From Gordonia insulae (GTDB taxonomy: Bacteria > Actinomycetota > Actinomycetes > Mycobacteriales > Mycobacteriaceae): 64,000 nucleotides of DNA. Under the pieces are notes generated by a model that was given only the letters and a program-made list of their open reading frames with translations, did not search any database and had not been told where the DNA came from. The stretch lies in the NCBI RefSeq assembly GCF_003855095.1, contig NZ_CP033972.1:4464001-4528000 (forward strand), read 5' to 3'. Below, in pieces: positions 22,682 through 29,507 of this stretch (its first letter is position 1; each line of letters begins with the position of its first letter). A program made the translations under genes and the position numbers.

Positions 22682-23266
22682 GTGCCCAAACTGATCGACC
22701 ACGACGCCCGACGAGCCGAGATCGCGGAGGCGCTCTGGCGGGTGGTGCTCCGCGACGGGGTGTCGGCGGTGTCGATCCGGGACGTCGCCGCCGAGGCGGG
22801 GATCTCCGCCGGGTCGTTGCGACATGTGTTCGCCGACAAGGAGGAGATGCTCGCGTTCTCGATGCGGCTGATCTACCTGCGGGTCGGCGAACGCGTCGTC
22901 GAGCATGCGGCGATCCGCGACCCGCTGCGGCGCGCGGAGGCGATGCTGTCGGAGGTCCTGCCCTTCGACGATGTGCGCCGGGTCGAGATGCACGTGAATC
23001 TGGCGCTGGTCACCGATGCGGTCGCACATCCGGGGCTGGCCGAGGCCGGACTCGAGGCGCACGACGGTCTGCGGGCACTGTGTCGGCGGGTGCTCACCGA
23101 TCTGAGCGACCACGGGCTCGTCGACGGGCGGCACGATCTGGAGGCGGAGGCGATGAGACTGCACGCTCTTGTCGACGGGCTGGCGGTGCATCTGCTGCTC
23201 GGGCACAACGACGCGCCCGCCCGGGTGCGGCGGCTGGTCCGGGATCACCTGGGGTCGTTGCGATGA
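22682..23266 (+). CDS. TetR family regulator (BetI-like)
   Basis: The 194-residue regulator has its helix-turn-helix at residues 10-55 (AEIAEALWRVVLRDG; VAAEAGISAGSLRHVFADKE). GTG 22682 was chosen because PKLIDHDARRAEIAEAL is the usual start of this subgroup; it has no good ribosome site, and the palindrome at 22656 leaves little room for a leader, so the mRNA may be nearly leaderless. It is divergent from the DUF418 gene, which is the obvious target. Confidence 0.85.
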   Translation: MPKLIDHDARRAEIAEALWRVVLRDGVSAVSIRDVAAEAGISAGSLRHVFADKEEMLAFSMRLIYLRVGERVVEHAAIRDPLRRAEAMLSEVLPFDDVRRVEMHVNLALVTDAVAHPGLAEAGLEAHDGLRALCRRVLTDLSDHGLVDGRHDLEAEAMRLHALVDGLAVHLLLGHNDAPARVRRLVRDHLGSLR

Positions 23267-23291
23267 GGGGCGCGCCCGCAGGTCCCGCTCT

Positions 23292-23355
23292 CCGGAAACC
23301 GCCCCGCCGGAAACCGCCCCGCCGGAAAACCGCCCCCGCCGGAAAAGCGCCCCCG
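23292..23355. repeat. Four tandem 15-17 bp GC-rich units
   Basis: Units CCGGAAACCGCCCCG (twice, 15 bp) and two 17-bp variants follow each other from 23292, 23307, 23322 and 23339. They start 26 bases after the TetR stop and run into the left arm of the hairpin at 23350. Confidence 0.75.
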
Positions 23356-23426
23356 AAATGCGCCCTCCGTAGCAGGGCCATCGACGCATTGTCGACGGGT
23401 TCGCTACGGAGGGCGCTTTTCGGGGG
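23350..23426. terminator. Long inverted repeat between convergent genes
   Basis: Arms 23350-23373 and 23403-23426 pair over 24 bases with one mismatch and enclose a 29-base loop. It lies between the TetR gene (+) and the end of the MarR operon (-), 22 bases past the latter's stop. It fits a bidirectional terminator, although 24 bp is unusually long. Confidence 0.7.
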
Positions 23427-23447
23427 CCGGGCCTGCCCGGGTAGTCG

Positions 23448-26111
23448 CTACGACACAGCCGGACTCCGGCCCGCACCCAAACCGATGTCGGCGACGTTGC
23501 GCTCACCCGCCACGACCTGAACCTGGACGGCGGCGGGCTCGTACATGTTGGCGACGATGGTGAACTGGGCGTCGGTGAGACCCTCGATCCGGTATCGACC
23601 GTCCGCGTCGGTGGTCACCGATGCGACGATCGTCTGCTCGGGTCCGATGGCCGACACGGTGGCACCCTCCAGCGGTGTGCCGTCGGCGGTGCGCACCGAA
23701 CCCTGCACGCCGCCGATGGCGACCAGCAGCAGTTCGATCCCGTTGTGCGAGGACGCGTCCACGGTCACCAGCTGGCTCGTCGGCTGGTAACCGGGAACCG
23801 ACGCCGTCACCGCGACCGTGTCACCCTGCGCCAGGCCGGCGATGGCGAAGCGGCCCTCGGAGTCGGCGTGCACCTGGGTGACCACCGCGCCGGACTGATC
23901 GGTGACGACCAGACTCGCGGCCAGGGGCCGCTGCGCGTCACGCACGACGCCCCGCACCGTCGATCCGCCGGCCAGCGCGAAGTCCCGCCGGAAGATCAGG
24001 TCGCCGACCACCGACACCGTGAGGGCGCGCGGAGAGCGGCCCGGTGCCGTCGCGATCACCGTGTAGGTCCCGTCGGCCAGATCGTGGATGCCGTACGACC
24101 CGTCGGCGTGCACCGCGGCGGAGCCCGCCTGATGGCCGCGGACATCGGTCACGGTGACCGCGGAATCAGCCAGCGGCACTCCGTCGGCCGTGGTGATCCG
24201 ACCGGCGATACGCGGCCGCTCGGCCTGCGATCCGGCCGTTCCGGCCGACGTCAGACGATGCCGGGGCAGGGAGTCCGCTGCCGCGGCCGACCGCGGTTCG
24301 TCGATCAACTCCGACGGTGTCCCGACTCCCGCGTCGGCGGCCACCGCCGCCAGTTCCGCTCCCACGGTCTCCGGCATCAGCGGTGCCTTCTTCGATCCAC
24401 CGGTGAACAGCGACGCGATCGCACCCAGGACGCAGCAGATCAGGGCGAAGGTGAACGCCGCCGTCAGGCCGTCGGAGAACGGATCGCTGATCAGATGCGG
24501 GAAGAACTCCAGTCCGGTGAGGTGATCGACGCTCGACTGTGGAAGTCCCTGCAGCGCTTGACCACCCACCTCCCGAATGGGGTTGTAGCCGAGGAAGGCG
24601 GCGAACAGGATGCCGACCGTCGGCAGATGTGCGATGCCGTTGGCGGTCGCGTCCGGCATGCCGTTGGCGGTCAGTCCACTCAGCATGGCGGTCGGCAGGT
24701 GCTTGCTCAGACCCGCGATCATCAGTGAGAAGAACAGTCCGATCGACAACACCATGGCCGCGTTCTGGAACGTCGTCATCATGCCCGCGCCCGATCCCCG
24801 CGACGTGATCGGCAGGCTGTTCATCACCTCGGCGCGGTTCGGCGAGGCGAAGAGCCCCATGCCGATTCCGTTGATGAGCATGATCACCGCGAACACCCAG
24901 TAGGTGAAGTCCACGGGGATCGCGATCAGCGCCGCGAACGTACCCGCGGTGATCAGCATGCCGATGGTGGTGAACCACTTGGTGCCCAGGCGGTCGGAGA
25001 GGAAGCCGGAGACCGGCGCGCTCAGCAGGAAGCCGATGGTCATCGGCACCATGTAGATGCCCGCCCACAGCGGGGTGCGGGAGTAGTCGAAGCCGTGCTG
25101 CGGCAGCCAGATGCCCTGCAACCAGATGATCAGGATGAACTGCAGGCCACCACGTCCGATGGAGGCCATCAGGTTGGCGAGGTTGCCGAATGCGAACGAC
25201 CGGTTCTTGAACAGCGACAGTTCGAAGAGGGGACTGTCGACCTTGGTCTCGATGAACACGAACGCGATCAACACGATCACGCCACCGATGAGCCCGGTGA
25301 GGACCCACGGGTTGCCCCACCCCATGTTGGATGTCCCGTACGGCTGGATGCCGTAGGTGATCGCGATCAGGATCGCGATGAGTCCGACCGCGAACGTGAT
25401 GTTGCCCCACCAGTCCATCTTGGCGCGACGGCGCTCGCCGGTGTCGTGCAGCTTGAGGTAGGCCCAGATGGTGCCGACGACGCCGAAGGGCACCGAGACG
25501 AGGAAGATGAAGTGCCACTGGATCGGTGCGAGCACGCCGCCGATCAGCAGGCCCAGGAACGAACCGGCGATCGCCGCGACACCGTTGATGCCCATGGCGA
25601 GTCCGCGTTGGTTGGCGGGGAAGGCGTCGGTGAGGATGGCCGAGGAGTTCGCCATCAGGAACGCGCCGCCGACGCCCTGGATGATGCGCCAGAAGATCAG
25701 CCAGATCGCGGCCTCGCTGCCGTCGAACCAGGTGATCGCCAGAAAGATCGATGACACGGTGAAGATGGCGAAGCCCATGTTGTACATGCGGGCTCGGCCG
25801 AACATGTCGCCGAGACGGCCGAAGCTCACCACCAGCACGGCGGTGACGACCAGGAAGCCCATCATCATCCACAGCAGATAGCTGGTGTTCTGCGGCTCGA
25901 GGGGATTGAGGTTGATGCCCTTGAAGATGTCCGGCAGGGCGATGAGCACGATCGAGCTGTTGATCGTGGCGATGAGCATGCCCAACGTGGTGTTCGACAG
26001 CGCGATCCACTTGTAGTTGGGCCCGAGTTCGTCGAGCGTTCGTTGCCGGGACGGTCGCGCGGCGCTACCCGCGGCGCGCGCGTCGGCTTCGGCGACTGCA
26101 TGATTCGACAT
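23448..26111 (-). CDS. 14-TM MFS exporter with three C-terminal carboxypeptidase-regulatory-like domains
   Basis: The 887-residue protein is a DHA2-type MFS pump (about 40-570) with motif A SFGRLGDMFGRARMYN and a helix-5 segment GINGVAAIAGSFLGLLIGG. After a linker of about 60 residues come three beta-sandwich repeats (about 634-713, 714-799, 800-880), each with a start like RIAGRITTADGVPLADSAVT, a DGSYGIHDLADGTY-type centre and a closing strand. These resemble carboxypeptidase-D regulatory / Cna-B-like domains. Normal DHA2 pumps end near residue 550. Last gene of the MarR operon, 35 bases after the YceI-fusion gene. The tail may bind substrate or the partner proteins of the operon; this is inference. 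Confidence 0.88.
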   Translation of the reverse strand: MSNHAVAEADARAAGSAARPSRQRTLDELGPNYKWIALSNTTLGMLIATINSSIVLIALPDIFKGINLNPLEPQNTSYLLWMMMGFLVVTAVLVVSFGRLGDMFGRARMYNMGFAIFTVSSIFLAITWFDGSEAAIWLIFWRIIQGVGGAFLMANSSAILTDAFPANQRGLAMGINGVAAIAGSFLGLLIGGVLAPIQWHFIFLVSVPFGVVGTIWAYLKLHDTGERRRAKMDWWGNITFAVGLIAILIAITYGIQPYGTSNMGWGNPWVLTGLIGGVIVLIAFVFIETKVDSPLFELSLFKNRSFAFGNLANLMASIGRGGLQFILIIWLQGIWLPQHGFDYSRTPLWAGIYMVPMTIGFLLSAPVSGFLSDRLGTKWFTTIGMLITAGTFAALIAIPVDFTYWVFAVIMLINGIGMGLFASPNRAEVMNSLPITSRGSGAGMMTTFQNAAMVLSIGLFFSLMIAGLSKHLPTAMLSGLTANGMPDATANGIAHLPTVGILFAAFLGYNPIREVGGQALQGLPQSSVDHLTGLEFFPHLISDPFSDGLTAAFTFALICCVLGAIASLFTGGSKKAPLMPETVGAELAAVAADAGVGTPSELIDEPRSAAAADSLPRHRLTSAGTAGSQAERPRIAGRITTADGVPLADSAVTVTDVRGHQAGSAAVHADGSYGIHDLADGTYTVIATAPGRSPRALTVSVVGDLIFRRDFALAGGSTVRGVVRDAQRPLAASLVVTDQSGAVVTQVHADSEGRFAIAGLAQGDTVAVTASVPGYQPTSQLVTVDASSHNGIELLLVAIGGVQGSVRTADGTPLEGATVSAIGPEQTIVASVTTDADGRYRIEGLTDAQFTIVANMYEPAAVQVQVVAGERNVADIGLGAGRSPAVS

Positions 26112-26146
26112 GTGTGCCTTTCAGGTCAGGAGGAGTTCGGGTCGGT

Positions 26147-26956
26147 TCAGGAGCTGGTGCGGACGGCCTGGATGTCGAGGCTCACGGTCGCGGTGCTGCC
26201 GATCTGAGCCACTCCGCTGATCAGCTTGTCGTCGAAACTGATCCCGAAGTCGTTGCGTTGCAGCGACCCGGTGGCGCGGAAGCCGGCGCGGTGACCACCC
26301 CACGGGTCGTCGACCTCACCGAGATAGGTCAGTTCGAGGGACACCGGCACTGCGGTGCCGCGCAGCGTCAGAGTGCCCGAGAGCGTCCACGCCTCATCGG
26401 TCGACGGCCGCACCTGCGACGCCCGGAACTCGGCGATCGGGTACTGCTCGGCGTCGAAGAACGCGTCGGAACGAAGGTGGTCGTCGCGGGTCCGGTTGTC
26501 GGTGTCGATGCTCGCCGTCTTGATCTCGGCGATCACCGCCGACTTCTCGATGTCCTCGGCCACCTCGATCTGACCGGTGAAGTCGCCGAAACGTCCTCGG
26601 ATGGTGGCGATCCCGAAATGACGGACACTGATCTCGATGGTCGAATGGCCGGGGTCGATCTCCCAGCGGCCGGTCGCCGGGACGGGTGCGCCGCCCGCGC
26701 GGGCAGCGGTGATCTGTCCGAGATTCAGCGCGCCGGAACCGGATACGACCGCAACGCGAGCGGTCGGTTGATAGCCCTCGGCCGTGATCACCGCGGTATA
26801 GGTGCCGGTGCCGATGTCGGCGGCGACCAGGGCGCCATCCGCGTCGGCGCGCACGATGGCCTGCTGTTCGCCGGCCTGCGACATGACGGTCATCACCGCT
26901 CCCTCGAGGGCACGGCCGGTGGAGGTCGACACGCGTGCCGTGATCGTTCCGCTCAT
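26147..26956 (-). CDS. YceI-family lipid-binding protein with N-terminal carboxypeptidase-regulatory-like domain
   Basis: The 269-residue protein has a beta-sandwich repeat at about 1-85 (SGTITARVSTSTGRALEGAV; GTGTYTAVITAEGYQPTARV) and a YceI lipocalin-like domain at about 93-266 (WEIDPGHSTIEISVRHFG; RTRDDHLRSDAFFDAEQYP; GLRNDFGI-type strand LQRNDFGISFDDKL). YceI proteins bind isoprenoid or long-chain lipids in a barrel. No signal peptide is visible, so it is probably cytoplasmic, unlike most exported YceI proteins. The ATG overlaps the preceding stop (ATGA), pointing to coupled translation. Confidence 0.9.
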   Translation of the reverse strand: MSGTITARVSTSTGRALEGAVMTVMSQAGEQQAIVRADADGALVAADIGTGTYTAVITAEGYQPTARVAVVSGSGALNLGQITAARAGGAPVPATGRWEIDPGHSTIEISVRHFGIATIRGRFGDFTGQIEVAEDIEKSAVIAEIKTASIDTDNRTRDDHLRSDAFFDAEQYPIAEFRASQVRPSTDEAWTLSGTLTLRGTAVPVSLELTYLGEVDDPWGGHRAGFRATGSLQRNDFGISFDDKLISGVAQIGSTATVSLDIQAVRTSS

Positions 26957-27786
26957 GCCTGCCCCCTTGCCCCGAGGACGAACTCGTGCGTGACGACCCG
27001 TCCGGCCTCGATGTCGATGGTCGCCGCGACCGGCGCATAGCCGTTGGCGATGACGGTGTAGTCGCCGGGCGCGAGGTTGGCGAACAGGTAGCGCCCGTGC
27101 TCGTCGGTCAGTGCGCTGGCCGCCATCTCGCCGGCGTCGTCGAGCAGCGCTACCTGGCTGTGCGCCACCGGCGAGCCGTCGGCGGCGGTGCCGTCGGTGA
27201 TCACTCCGCCGAGTTCGGCGGCGGTGCGCAGGACCACGTCGATCGTCGCGGCGGCGGTCCCGTCGATGGTCACGGTCTCGGCGACCGGATCACAGCCGGA
27301 TGCGGTGACGATGACGGTGTAGGTGCCGCCCGACAGTCCGCTCACGTCCCACCGGCCGTCCGCGCTGGTGACGGCGGTGGCGGTGACCTGTCCGGTGCGG
27401 TCGGCGACCGCGACGGTCGCCTTGGCGACGGGCTCGCCGGTGGCGGAGGTGGTCACGACGCCGCCCAGCGCGGCCATCGACGACAAGGTGACCTCGACGT
27501 CGACCGGACTGCTGCCGACGGCCACGGTGACCGCAGACGGTTCGTGGCCGTTCGCCGAGACGACGAGCACGTAGTGGCCACCCGCGGCGACCCGGATGAC
27601 GAACGTGCCGTCGGGATTTCCGACGGACCGGGCGGCCTGACGGCCGTTCGGGTCGATGACCGTCACCGTCGCGTCGGCGATTGCGCTACCGTCCGCGCGA
27701 CGGATGTCGCCGCGGATAGTGCCACCGGGGCTCGAAGGCGGTGACGAGTCGCCCTCGTCGCGGTGTCCGTTGATGTTGGGCTGCAT
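26953..27786 (-). CDS. Three-domain carboxypeptidase-regulatory-like protein
   Basis: The 277-residue protein is composed only of three beta-sandwich repeats (about 22-105, 106-190, 191-277) after a polar N-terminus. Each repeat has the pattern GxI/VT...G.PVAKATVAV...DGRWDVSGLSGGTYTVIV. No signal peptide, enzyme motif or membrane segment was seen. The ATG at 27786 shares one base with the MarR stop (TGATG) and follows GAGGAG. The domains match those fused to YceI and to the MFS pump in the next two genes, so the three proteins probably act together. Confidence 0.82.
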   Translation of the reverse strand: MQPNINGHRDEGDSSPPSSPGGTIRGDIRRADGSAIADATVTVIDPNGRQAARSVGNPDGTFVIRVAAGGHYVLVVSANGHEPSAVTVAVGSSPVDVEVTLSSMAALGGVVTTSATGEPVAKATVAVADRTGQVTATAVTSADGRWDVSGLSGGTYTVIVTASGCDPVAETVTIDGTAAATIDVVLRTAAELGGVITDGTAADGSPVAHSQVALLDDAGEMAASALTDEHGRYLFANLAPGDYTVIANGYAPVAATIDIEAGRVVTHEFVLGARGQA

Positions 27787-28307
27787 CAGTTCTCCTCCTC
27801 TGTCGGGGCGTCGTCTGTGGTGGGAACAGCGGGGGCGTGGGCGCCGGGATGGACGGCGAGCTCGCACAAGGTGTCGGCGAGCAACCGCATGGCCTGTTCG
27901 ACCTTCTCTCGGTCGTCCGAGTCGAGATGGTCGAGTGCCACCTCGAACAGCTGCGATTTGCGCGACGATGCGCCCCGGATGAAATCGAGCCCCGCTGCCG
28001 TCGGTGTGAGCAGGCAGACCCGCCCGTCGTGCGGATCGGCGGTGCGCACCACCATCTCGTGCCGTTCGAGTGTTGCCACCACCCGGGACATCGTCGGTCC
28101 CGCCACGCCCTCGCGGTCGGCGAGTTCGGTGGCGCGAATCGGCGCATGCTGCGCGATGGTCCACAGCGCACACATCTGACCCGCGGACAGCGGACCCTCG
28201 CCGGATCTCGACCGAACCGCGCGTCCGATCCGGATCAGATCGCGATGGACGGCCGCGGCACCGGTCGGTGTGGTGGTCGTCAGATCGATCGTGCGGGATC
28301 CGGACAC
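27786..28307 (-). CDS. MarR family transcriptional regulator
   Basis: The 173-residue winged-helix regulator has its recognition region in LADREGVAGPTMSRVVATLE and the wing in MVVRTADPHDGRVCLLTPTA. It is the first gene of an operon continuing with the three-domain protein, the YceI fusion and the MFS fusion, all overlapping or closely spaced. Two matching palindromes lie at 28336-28376, 29-69 bases before its start, so it should repress its own operon until a ligand (probably a phenolic or lipophilic compound, as usual for the family) binds. Confidence 0.9.
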   Translation of the reverse strand: MSGSRTIDLTTTTPTGAAAVHRDLIRIGRAVRSRSGEGPLSAGQMCALWTIAQHAPIRATELADREGVAGPTMSRVVATLERHEMVVRTADPHDGRVCLLTPTAAGLDFIRGASSRKSQLFEVALDHLDSDDREKVEQAMRLLADTLCELAVHPGAHAPAVPTTDDAPTEEEN

Positions 28308-28335
28308 GGAGACACGCCCCCTCCAACAGACAACT

Positions 28336-28376
28336 ACTTAGTAAAGCTAAATGAAAATTACTTAGCCAGACTAAGT
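28336..28376 (-). promoter_or_regulatory. Two MarR-type operator boxes
   Basis: ACTTAGTAAAGCTAAAT (28336-28352) and ACTTAGCCAGACTAAGT (28360-28376) share the form ACTTAG-N5-CTAAGT; the second is perfect and the first has one mismatch. Centres are 24 bases apart. The stretch is markedly AT-rich and overlaps the expected promoter of the MarR operon. Confidence 0.82.
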
Positions 28377-28455
28377 GAATCACCGCCCCGGAGTCGCCTC
28401 GGGACGGTGTGAGTTGGGCTACATCTGTGGCGAAAAGACCGGCAAAGCAGTCGAT

Positions 28456-28495
28456 TTCGGACATAGGCGGCATCGGTTCGCCGGATATGTCCGAA
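28456..28495 (-). terminator. Hairpin after the DoxX gene
   Basis: TTCGGACATA (28456-28465) pairs perfectly with TATGTCCGAA (28486-28495), with an inner GGCG/CGCC pairing. It begins 48 bases past the DoxX stop, so it may end that transcript. An operator role is also possible. Confidence 0.5.
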
Positions 28496-28542
28496 GTCGC
28501 GACGGTGCCCACGACCGCCGCAGAAGGGTCGTCGAACGGTGA

Positions 28543-29031
28543 TCAGCGGTGCACATCCGGTATCGCGGCCCGACTCGTCCGACGACTGACCAGCAGCGTG
28601 GGCAGTGACCACCCTGACGCGGCGTGCGGGAACGCGACGACGGCGACCGACAGCAGGACCATGATCGGGTACTGGCCGATCAGCTGGTCGGCCATCCAGT
28701 AGGTCATCAGCATGACGGCGGACAGCGCTGCGGCGGGACGGACCAGCACGCCGATGACCAGGACGATGCCCAGGCCGGTCTCCATCGCCGGGATGGCAAC
28801 GCCGAAGAGTTCGGTGAGAGGGTCCATCACGAGCGTCGCGAACTCGGTGAAGTAGCCGGGCACTCGGCTGTTGGACATGGCGCCGTCGACCACCAACTGG
28901 ATGTCGGCACTGCCGAAGTGAGCGCGGTACTTCAGGATTCCCTCGTTGAGCCAGAGGATGCCGAGGGCGATCCTCGCCGCACCCATGAGCACGGGTGCGG
29001 CGAGGACGCGAAGGTTCGACGACAGTGTCAT
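28543..29031 (-). CDS. DoxX-family membrane protein
   Basis: The 162-residue protein has four hydrophobic segments and the DoxX features RIALGILWLNEGILKYRAHFG near the start and METGLGIVLVIGVLVRPAAAL in the middle. DoxX proteins are small inner-membrane proteins linked in some bacteria to thiol and oxidant stress complexes; biochemical function is uncertain. Its ATG overlaps the stop of the preceding DM13 lipoprotein gene (ATGA), so they are co-translated. Confidence 0.82.
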   Translation of the reverse strand: MTLSSNLRVLAAPVLMGAARIALGILWLNEGILKYRAHFGSADIQLVVDGAMSNSRVPGYFTEFATLVMDPLTELFGVAIPAMETGLGIVLVIGVLVRPAAALSAVMLMTYWMADQLIGQYPIMVLLSVAVVAFPHAASGWSLPTLLVSRRTSRAAIPDVHR

Positions 29032-29507
29032 GACATCAGCGGTGCGGCACCGAAGACGGCCTTCGCCTTGTCGCAGTTGATCACGACCGTGGTGTAGGAG
29101 GAGGCGTCGACACCCTCGAGCATGAAGGTCTGGGAGTCCTTGTCGTAGGCGACGGTGCCGATCTCCTTGCCGGCGCCGACCGCGGTCTGGTCGGTGCCGT
29201 TCGTCAGGTAGACGTGCAGATCGGGTCCTTCGTCGGAGGAGAATCCCGACAGGACGATCTCGTCGTCGCTGACCATCGCCATGCCGGACACGGCTTTTCC
29301 GTTGAGCCCGCCGAACTGGCCCGTCCGGGACATCTGGGCCTGCGGCGACATCATCTCCGGTGACGACATCATGCTCTGTGGCGACATCATCGCCGCGGAC
29401 GACGTCGCGGCGGCCGGTTGGTCCGCGTCCGAGCTGCACCCGGTGAGCGACACCGCCGCGGCGATGAGCGTCGCGCCGACGGCGCCGGTGATTGCTGACT
29501 TGCGCAT
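29028..29507 (-). CDS. Met-rich DM13-domain lipoprotein
   Basis: The 159-residue protein has a signal peptide with lipobox LTGC (about residue 24), a linker with seven Met in about 22 residues as MMS/MMSPQ repeats (about 40-62), and a DM13 domain (about 63-155: GQFGGLNGKAVSGMAMVS; GPDLHVYLTNG). DM13 domains are thought to carry electron-transfer or redox chemistry using a conserved Cys; here a single Cys lies in VVINCDKAKAVFG. The Met cluster resembles copper-binding segments of exported metal proteins. It pairs with DoxX downstream and is divergent from a two-component system, which may control it. Confidence 0.85.
   Translation of the reverse strand: MRKSAITGAVGATLIAAAVSLTGCSSDADQPAAATSSAAMMSPQSMMSSPEMMSPQAQMSRTGQFGGLNGKAVSGMAMVSDDEIVLSGFSSDEGPDLHVYLTNGTDQTAVGAGKEIGTVAYDKDSQTFMLEGVDASSYTTVVINCDKAKAVFGAAPLMS

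Follow-up and report, generated by a model that had tools for sequence, protein, structure and literature searches.

A putative MarR-linked efflux operon of Gordonia insulae in which a predicted drug pump and a leaderless YceI protein share a transthyretin-like domain

Introduction

Multidrug pumps are usually held to take greasy substrates alone from the membrane, and how they find them inside the cell is an open question. The transporter Rv1410, of the major facilitator superfamily (MFS), has a lipoprotein partner, LprG, on the other side of the membrane, as described in an excerpt of PMC10576003. Among the YceI lipocalins, BcnA takes up rifampin, polymyxin B, norfloxacin and ceftazidime by sequestration, though not gentamicin, and has a higher affinity for alpha-tocopherol and menaquinone (excerpt of PMC5350466); another YceI protein increases pinene tolerance in E. 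coli (excerpt of PMC4596283). Here we analyze a stretch of 64,000 nucleotides from Gordonia insulae (NZ_CP033972.1, GCF_003855095.1, positions 4,464,001-4,528,000 of a 5.96 Mb genome; hereafter the window). It holds a MarR-linked operon in which an MFS pump ends in three carboxypeptidase-regulatory-like domains (CPD, PF13620) and a YceI protein begins with another. Across genomes the tail of the pump and the CPD-YceI protein co-occur and are lost together, and the tail moves between pump bodies, which suggests that the shared domain couples the proteins. We found no published description of this operon system in the open-licence literature.

Results

One operon with seven copies of one domain

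Four minus-strand genes, marR, cpd3, cpd-yceI and mfs-cpd3, are packed tightly as one operon in 23448-28307 (Table 1): the stop codon of marR and the ATG of cpd3 have one base in common, cpd3 and cpd-yceI overlap by 4 bases, and a gap of 35 bases precedes mfs-cpd3. Pfam finds PF01047 in the marR product (E 2.5e-13, 50.1 bits against a cut-off of 24.6), PF13620 in three stretches of cpd3 (E 5.5e-41), one PF13620 domain (33.0 bits, cut-off 32.3) together with YceI (E 6e-42) in cpd-yceI, and MFS_1 (E 1.1e-37) with three PF13620 stretches (E 2.1e-34) in the pump. The regulator scores 77 bits against the Rv0880-family model NF052438, below its cut-off of 220. Gene and Pfam mapping thus confirm the original prediction, made from the letters of the window, of a tight marR operon in which three proteins share seven copies of one domain in three architectures.

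Scored singly, each of the seven CPD domains exceeds the PF13620 gathering cut-off of 32.3 bits (34.6-58.8 bits). They are mutually alignable at 21-45% pairwise identity, and because every pair lies 5.5-24 standard deviations above 200 shuffles, the seven form one family. The relatedness on which the original prediction depended therefore holds by sequence, and a structure search with one of the domains identifies its predicted fold as a transthyretin-like beta-sandwich. In cpd3 and in the pump tail alike, the third domain has a short gap before the motif AN-x-Y-x-P, and the two arrays look like copies of one. The genome contains 11 PF13620 domains over the cut-off: the seven in the operon, three in the tail of a second MFS pump about 84 kb away, and one elsewhere.

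The tail and the CPD-YceI protein occur together

The core of marR, MFS-CPD3 and CPD-YceI recurs across actinobacteria. A search with the CPD-YceI protein gave 335 matches, of which 120 are listed; the best 66 carry both domains (sources named among them are Gordonia, Tsukamurella, Actinomadura, Saccharopolyspora, Streptomyces and Nonomuraea) and the other 54 carry YceI only. CPD-tailed MFS proteins are as widespread as the fusions.

We surveyed 397 genomes of the order, counting per genome, with thresholds of E <= 1e-45 for CPD-YceI and E <= 1e-20 for cpd3. CPD-YceI is present in 55 genomes and a cpd3 match in 66, and all 55 lie within the 66; twelve weaker second matches, 35-39% identical, contribute no genome to the 55. 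A CPD array is thus matched in 55/55 genomes with CPD-YceI versus 11/342 without it (Fisher p 8e-57 by genomes and 4e-16 by genera, neither corrected for kinship), and the array and CPD-YceI are no more than 1 kb apart in 48 of the 55.

Beyond a first set of Gordonia loci we scanned 31 further loci with a linked CPD-tailed pump (class I), one of which, L134, is again Gordonia. A MarR match is found somewhere in the stretch at 23/31. Among the 30 loci from other genera, 23 have the array on the pump reading frame beside CPD-YceI and no separate cpd3; stand-alone arrays are also seen in L137, and perhaps in L125 and L129. The stand-alone three-domain protein, the scaffold of the original prediction, is therefore not the core of the system. 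That interpretation is supported in part, by the kinship of the domains, the cytoplasmic setting (see below) and the conservation of the genes, which are kept together in many genera. In an all-against-all comparison of open reading frames (ORFs) at 36 loci, the listed ORFs common to at least 16 loci comprise no conserved genes besides marR, MFS, CPD arrays, CPD-YceI and shadow frames.

Long frames of 1109-1527 aa at L118-L121 resembled MFS-YceI fusions and were rejected: in L118, L119 and L121 the long frame overlaps a pump that has an ORF of its own (in L118 the pump ORF starts 67 bases from the start of the long frame, hence in a different frame), and in L120 the array lies just outside the stretch read, on the other strand. 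A single locus of G668, a genome of the same order (family f14), encodes five proteins with CPD domains (L137:823-7067). One is an MFS protein bearing a single CPD, two are DUF1275 membrane proteins with a CPD at the end of the chain, and the others are a divergent cpd3 and CPD-YceI. The domain may also tag membrane proteins of other kinds. Seven loci of Streptomyces-like genomes (L083-L089) hold CPD-YceI proteins of a second class, 35-37% identical and with no obvious leader; we kept them apart as class II for want of a linked CPD-tailed pump.

The tail is exchanged between pump bodies

Clustered by pump body, 147 tailed proteins form five clusters, two of which, A (the window type) and B, hold Gordonia pumps. 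Between A and B the bodies are on average 26% identical and the tails 60%, at most 77%. Within the genome of the window itself, the body of the operon pump matches that of the second tailed pump at 27% identity over 350 residues, and the tail at 66% over 258 residues. In the tail tree, from which four duplicates or near-duplicates were dropped, B-type pumps occupy three positions, of which a Streptomyces protein accounts for one, and well supported branches force at least two changes. In two Gordonia loci, L041 and L134, the operon itself carries a B-type pump. The tail is a cassette swapped between unrelated pump bodies.

The YceI protein goes with the tail. For 31 operons, YceI distance tracks the tail (partial r 0.79 given the body) and not the body (0.24 given the tail), and the CPD domain of CPD-YceI gives 0.82 with the tail given the body and -0.17 with the body given the tail; these correlations are descriptive only, the rows being related by descent, and we claim no significance for them.

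Tail and partners are lost together in Gordonia

In 59 Gordonia genomes we found 37 pump bodies at E <= 1e-200. Eleven have a tail directly downstream and all 11 adjoin CPD-YceI; among the remaining 26 none has a tail or CPD-YceI alongside. CPD-YceI is present in 14 of the 59 genomes: the eleven, two with a B-type pump (G829 and G686), and G815, whose pump, not among the 37, is apparently cut by contig ends, CPD-YceI ending 162 bases before the end of one contig and the tail lying near the start of another. CPD-tail matches are found in 15 Gordonia genomes, these 14 and G010, which has fragments only.

Untailed close relatives of the pump body are common among the matches listed, so the pump persists even where tail and YceI are absent. 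The tailed bodies do not form a single clade (approximately unbiased, AU, p 1.5e-8), and the untailed pumps of G001 and G812 nest among them. Another count of state changes, 13, is overstated, since some rows scored as untailed are partial (P0329) or possibly truncated; 27 near-identical rows were dropped for that count, and we rely on the nesting analysis instead. The G812 pump (607 aa, untailed) is 88% identical to the window pump over 609 residues and is flanked, on the same sides, by relatives of the PPK2 and luciferase-like genes of the window, the other intervening genes being different; there is no marR, CPD or YceI match in 19 kb around it, and the genome as a whole has neither CPD-YceI nor a tail. 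The untailed pump of G001 is immediately preceded by a MarR gene, and the 19 kb read contain no CPD or YceI match. Both genomes have retained the pump and lost its tail and partners. Recombination replacing the tailed gene with an untailed copy would give the same picture and the same inference.

The fragments in G010 (C1:4667831-4668338, L199), with no pump or YceI match in 12 kb, are a decayed remnant. In G817 a stand-alone cpd3 copy (C62:117929-118672) has one in-frame TGA and is broken or misread.

Predicted placement of the proteins

The AlphaFold model of the pump body has 14 helices of at least 15 residues, the number given in the original prediction, while a plain hydropathy scan counts 12. 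A disordered linker of low model confidence (pLDDT) at residues 573-629 leads to the three CPD domains at about 635-878. With the N-terminus assumed to be inside, the lysine and arginine (K/R) value is 17.4 inside versus 2.5 outside, and the even number of helices together with this charge pattern places the tail inside the cell. The pump is thus predicted to have the 14 helices of a DHA2-like protein with both ends inside and a cytoplasmic CPD3 tail. It scores 176.2 bits against the DHA2 EmrB subfamily model TIGR00711, below the cut-off of 230.2; going by its family, it would export drugs in a proton-coupled manner.

In the model of CPD-YceI, the CPD domain occupies about residues 1-87, beginning at residue 2-4, and YceI about residues 96-267. 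Seven residues (D101, H113, R157, D158, G194, G213 and D217) are invariant in the 66 fusions and 54 plain YceI proteins. A hydropathy scan, with no dedicated signal-peptide program run, finds no hydrophobic segment in cpd3 or CPD-YceI, and inspection of 16 CPD-YceI relatives, some with unsure start sites, reveals no obvious leader. The cytoplasmic setting of the original prediction is thus supported by the absence of a visible leader, the even helix number and the charge pattern. By analogy with its family the YceI domain may bind a hydrophobic ligand, and the compound would then be lipophilic and carried by YceI to the pump.

SCO4121/SCO4122 could not be shown to be a characterised Streptomyces member of the system. 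SCO4120 is a reported sigma-E target; its published promoter was not found upstream of CPD-YceI in 17 loci, the sole match of at least 22/29 bases (L085) being 3.5 kb off.

Upstream region and neighbours

Two putative MarR sites stand upstream of the operon, as predicted, and follow the form AYTTAGTNNNRCTAAGT, one with a mismatch. By inspection, box 1 is recognisable in 7/7 distinct Gordonia upstream regions (the window and L034-L039) and box 2 in 6/7; L090 has the same sequence as L039, and no marR match was obtained for L040, L041 and L134. At no more than one mismatch to AYTTAGTNNNRCTAAGT the two boxes are the sole sites in the genome, and they therefore look like a local switch. At two mismatches there are 12 matches versus 18 for the backward control, i.e., the motif is no commoner. 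Further upstream, at 28408-28423, stands TGTGAGTTGGGCTACA, which we take to resemble a CRP/GlxR site; a similar block is visible by inspection in the seven distinct Gordonia upstream regions.

A promoter and terminator scan of 23250-28620 gave no match (terminator loop limit 8). An inverted repeat with 24-base arms, one mismatch and a 29-base loop lies at 23350-23426, between the pump stop and a convergent tetR-like gene, and is perhaps a two-way terminator. Upstream of the operon, at 28543-29507, a DoxX-like membrane protein gene stands beside a DM13 protein gene.

Table 1. Features of the operon in window coordinates, with the tail of the second pump of the same genome
Feature	Position	Strand	Remark
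MarR box 1, putative	28360-28376	-	perfect 7-base arms, ACTTAGT-CTG-GCTAAGT on minus strand
MarR box 2, putative	28336-28352	-	imperfect, ATTTAGCTTTACTAAGT
marR	27786-28307	-	MarR-family regulator, 173 aa; Pfam MarR PF01047
cpd3	26953-27786	-	stand-alone, three CPD (PF13620) domains, 277 aa; Pfam
cpd-yceI	26147-26956	-	one CPD domain fused to YceI lipocalin-like domain, 269 aa; Pfam
mfs-cpd3	23448-26111	-	DHA2-like MFS pump with three CPD domains, 887 aa; Pfam
CPD3 tail of the pump	23448-24224	-	predicted cytoplasmic; portion exchanged between pump bodies
Tail of second tailed MFS pump (L032)	G000:C1:4576731-4577507		outside window; unrelated body, tail 66% identical

Discussion

The comparison of genomes adds evidence that the shared CPD domain serves to couple the proteins functionally rather than being there by chance. 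In the best model, which we hold about equally likely to be right or wrong, CPD domains dock a lipocalin-like binder in the cytoplasm onto an efflux pump. A small inducer would free MarR from the two boxes and the operon would be expressed. The DHA2-like pump would then display three transthyretin-like CPD domains on a flexible tail in the cytoplasm, and the leaderless CPD-YceI would bind hydrophobic molecules, its single CPD domain acting as a docking tag. Contacts between CPD domains would keep CPD-YceI against the cytoplasmic side of the pump, bridged in Gordonia by the additional cpd3 array. A hydrophobic compound that the binder picks up from the cytosol or from the inner leaflet would be handed to the pump and expelled. 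The anatomy of genes and domains, the co-occurrence, the swapping of tails and the joint loss are observed, and the folds and the cytoplasmic location are predicted; the CPD-CPD contact, the hand-over and its direction, the class of substrate and the inducer are what we infer.

Several observations weigh against this docked binder. The second tailed pump has no YceI gene within the 14 kb around it, so a tail need not have a partner nearby, and 11 genomes of the order match the array without having CPD-YceI. In 7 of the 55 genomes with both, the array is not within 1 kb of CPD-YceI: it is 5.7 kb away in G435 and more than 600 kb in G441 and G635, and there is no same-contig match in G447, G450, G458 and G644, though in G447 split CPD frames do adjoin CPD-YceI (L133). 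The class II proteins are unlinked to a CPD-tailed pump in 7/7 loci, no single-chain fusion of MFS, CPD and YceI is found among the loci scanned, and an untailed relative 82% identical to the pump is present in the same genome (G000:5638956-5640581). The split between the two Gordonia B-type tail groups depends on moderately supported forks (83-90), and shared descent accounts for part of the distance correlations and of the co-occurrence. Finally, the YceI proteins with described roles in the papers covered are periplasmic or secreted.

Joint loss and co-occurrence would fit equally well if the CPD arrays clustered or gated the pump while CPD-YceI only soaked up toxin in the cytosol, all three being needed without any hand-over. 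That cpd3 has no further domain is in keeping with such an arrangement, and sequestration alone protects in the case described in the excerpt of PMC5350466. By itself, however, it gives no account of why the same domain is on the YceI protein, and it leaves unexplained that the distances of this domain follow the tail (partial 0.82 versus -0.17); we consider it rather unlikely.

The cargo might instead be an endogenous lipid or isoprenoid, such as a quinone, polyprenol or carotenoid, and the pump an exporter like Rv1410-LprG with the carrier on the inner side. The closest solved structures of the pump model include the Rv1410 homologue MHAS2168, and EfpA with lipids; Rv1410 acts with the periplasmic lipoprotein LprG in triacylglyceride transport (excerpt of PMC10576003), and the title of the structure 1wub names TT1927b a polyisoprenoid-binding protein. 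Yet the patchiness within Gordonia (14/59 genomes), the dedicated MarR and the exchange of bodies better fit an optional defence than a housekeeping lipid, and the listed ORFs common to at least 16/36 loci include no biosynthetic gene; we consider a lipid cargo improbable. Many solved relatives of the CPD domain are pilins, adhesins and other surface or secreted proteins and the described YceI proteins are exported, but that the CPD-bearing parts lie outside the membrane, the soluble ones exported by an unknown route, is very hard to reconcile with a CPD-YceI whose CPD starts at residue 2-4, with no leader in the window protein and none obvious in 16 relatives (some starts unsure), and with 14 predicted helices and a charge pattern that place the tail inside.

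If a binder does dock on the tail, the transthyretin-like domain may be an interchangeable intracellular plug of actinobacteria, such that any efflux pump gaining a CPD3 tail accesses the shared CPD-YceI feeder; we offer this as a tentative extension that could well be wrong. The losses and tail swaps seen in nature point towards a delivery module that is separable and can be taken away one piece at a time in a soil actinobacterium, which opens the idea of a fed MFS pump to direct testing. If true, it would provide a function for transthyretin-like domains in the cytoplasm and for YceI proteins without a leader, which now bear family names only.

Comparison with known systems

Nearest to the pump in sequence and fold are QacA, EfpA, EmrB and MHAS2168, and it has MFS_1, 14 predicted helices and a MarR gene in the operon. 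The CPD tail and the YceI partner set it apart from the MarR-regulated DHA2/14-helix drug pumps, among which SCO4121 with SCO4122 is also counted: the solved pumps matched have a pump part of 411-629 residues at most and match the body of the window pump only. CPD-YceI likewise differs from the YceI lipocalins BcnA, BcnB, PA0423 and TT1927b in being leaderless, fused to CPD and operon-linked to a CPD-tailed pump. The exported YceI/BCN lipocalins have a signal peptide, whereas CPD-YceI has no hydrophobic segment and its CPD starts at residue 2-4.

In vertebrates, where the proteins are extracellular, transthyretin and retinol-binding protein give an example of a transthyretin-like fold docking a lipocalin-type carrier; this is an analogy only, with no sign of common descent with the window system. 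SusC-type transporters with an N-terminal extension domain are outer-membrane importers, unlike the window pump. We know of no earlier MFS system with a dedicated cytoplasmic substrate-delivery protein, and a plug system would be the first. Rv1410 with LprG is likewise an MFS transporter paired with a hydrophobic-ligand protein (excerpt of PMC10576003), but LprG is a periplasmic lipoprotein, whereas the partner in the window is a leaderless YceI fusion predicted to be cytoplasmic. There is a real chance that the operon of the window, a variant of a MarR-linked MFS pump, represents a new kind of transport system.

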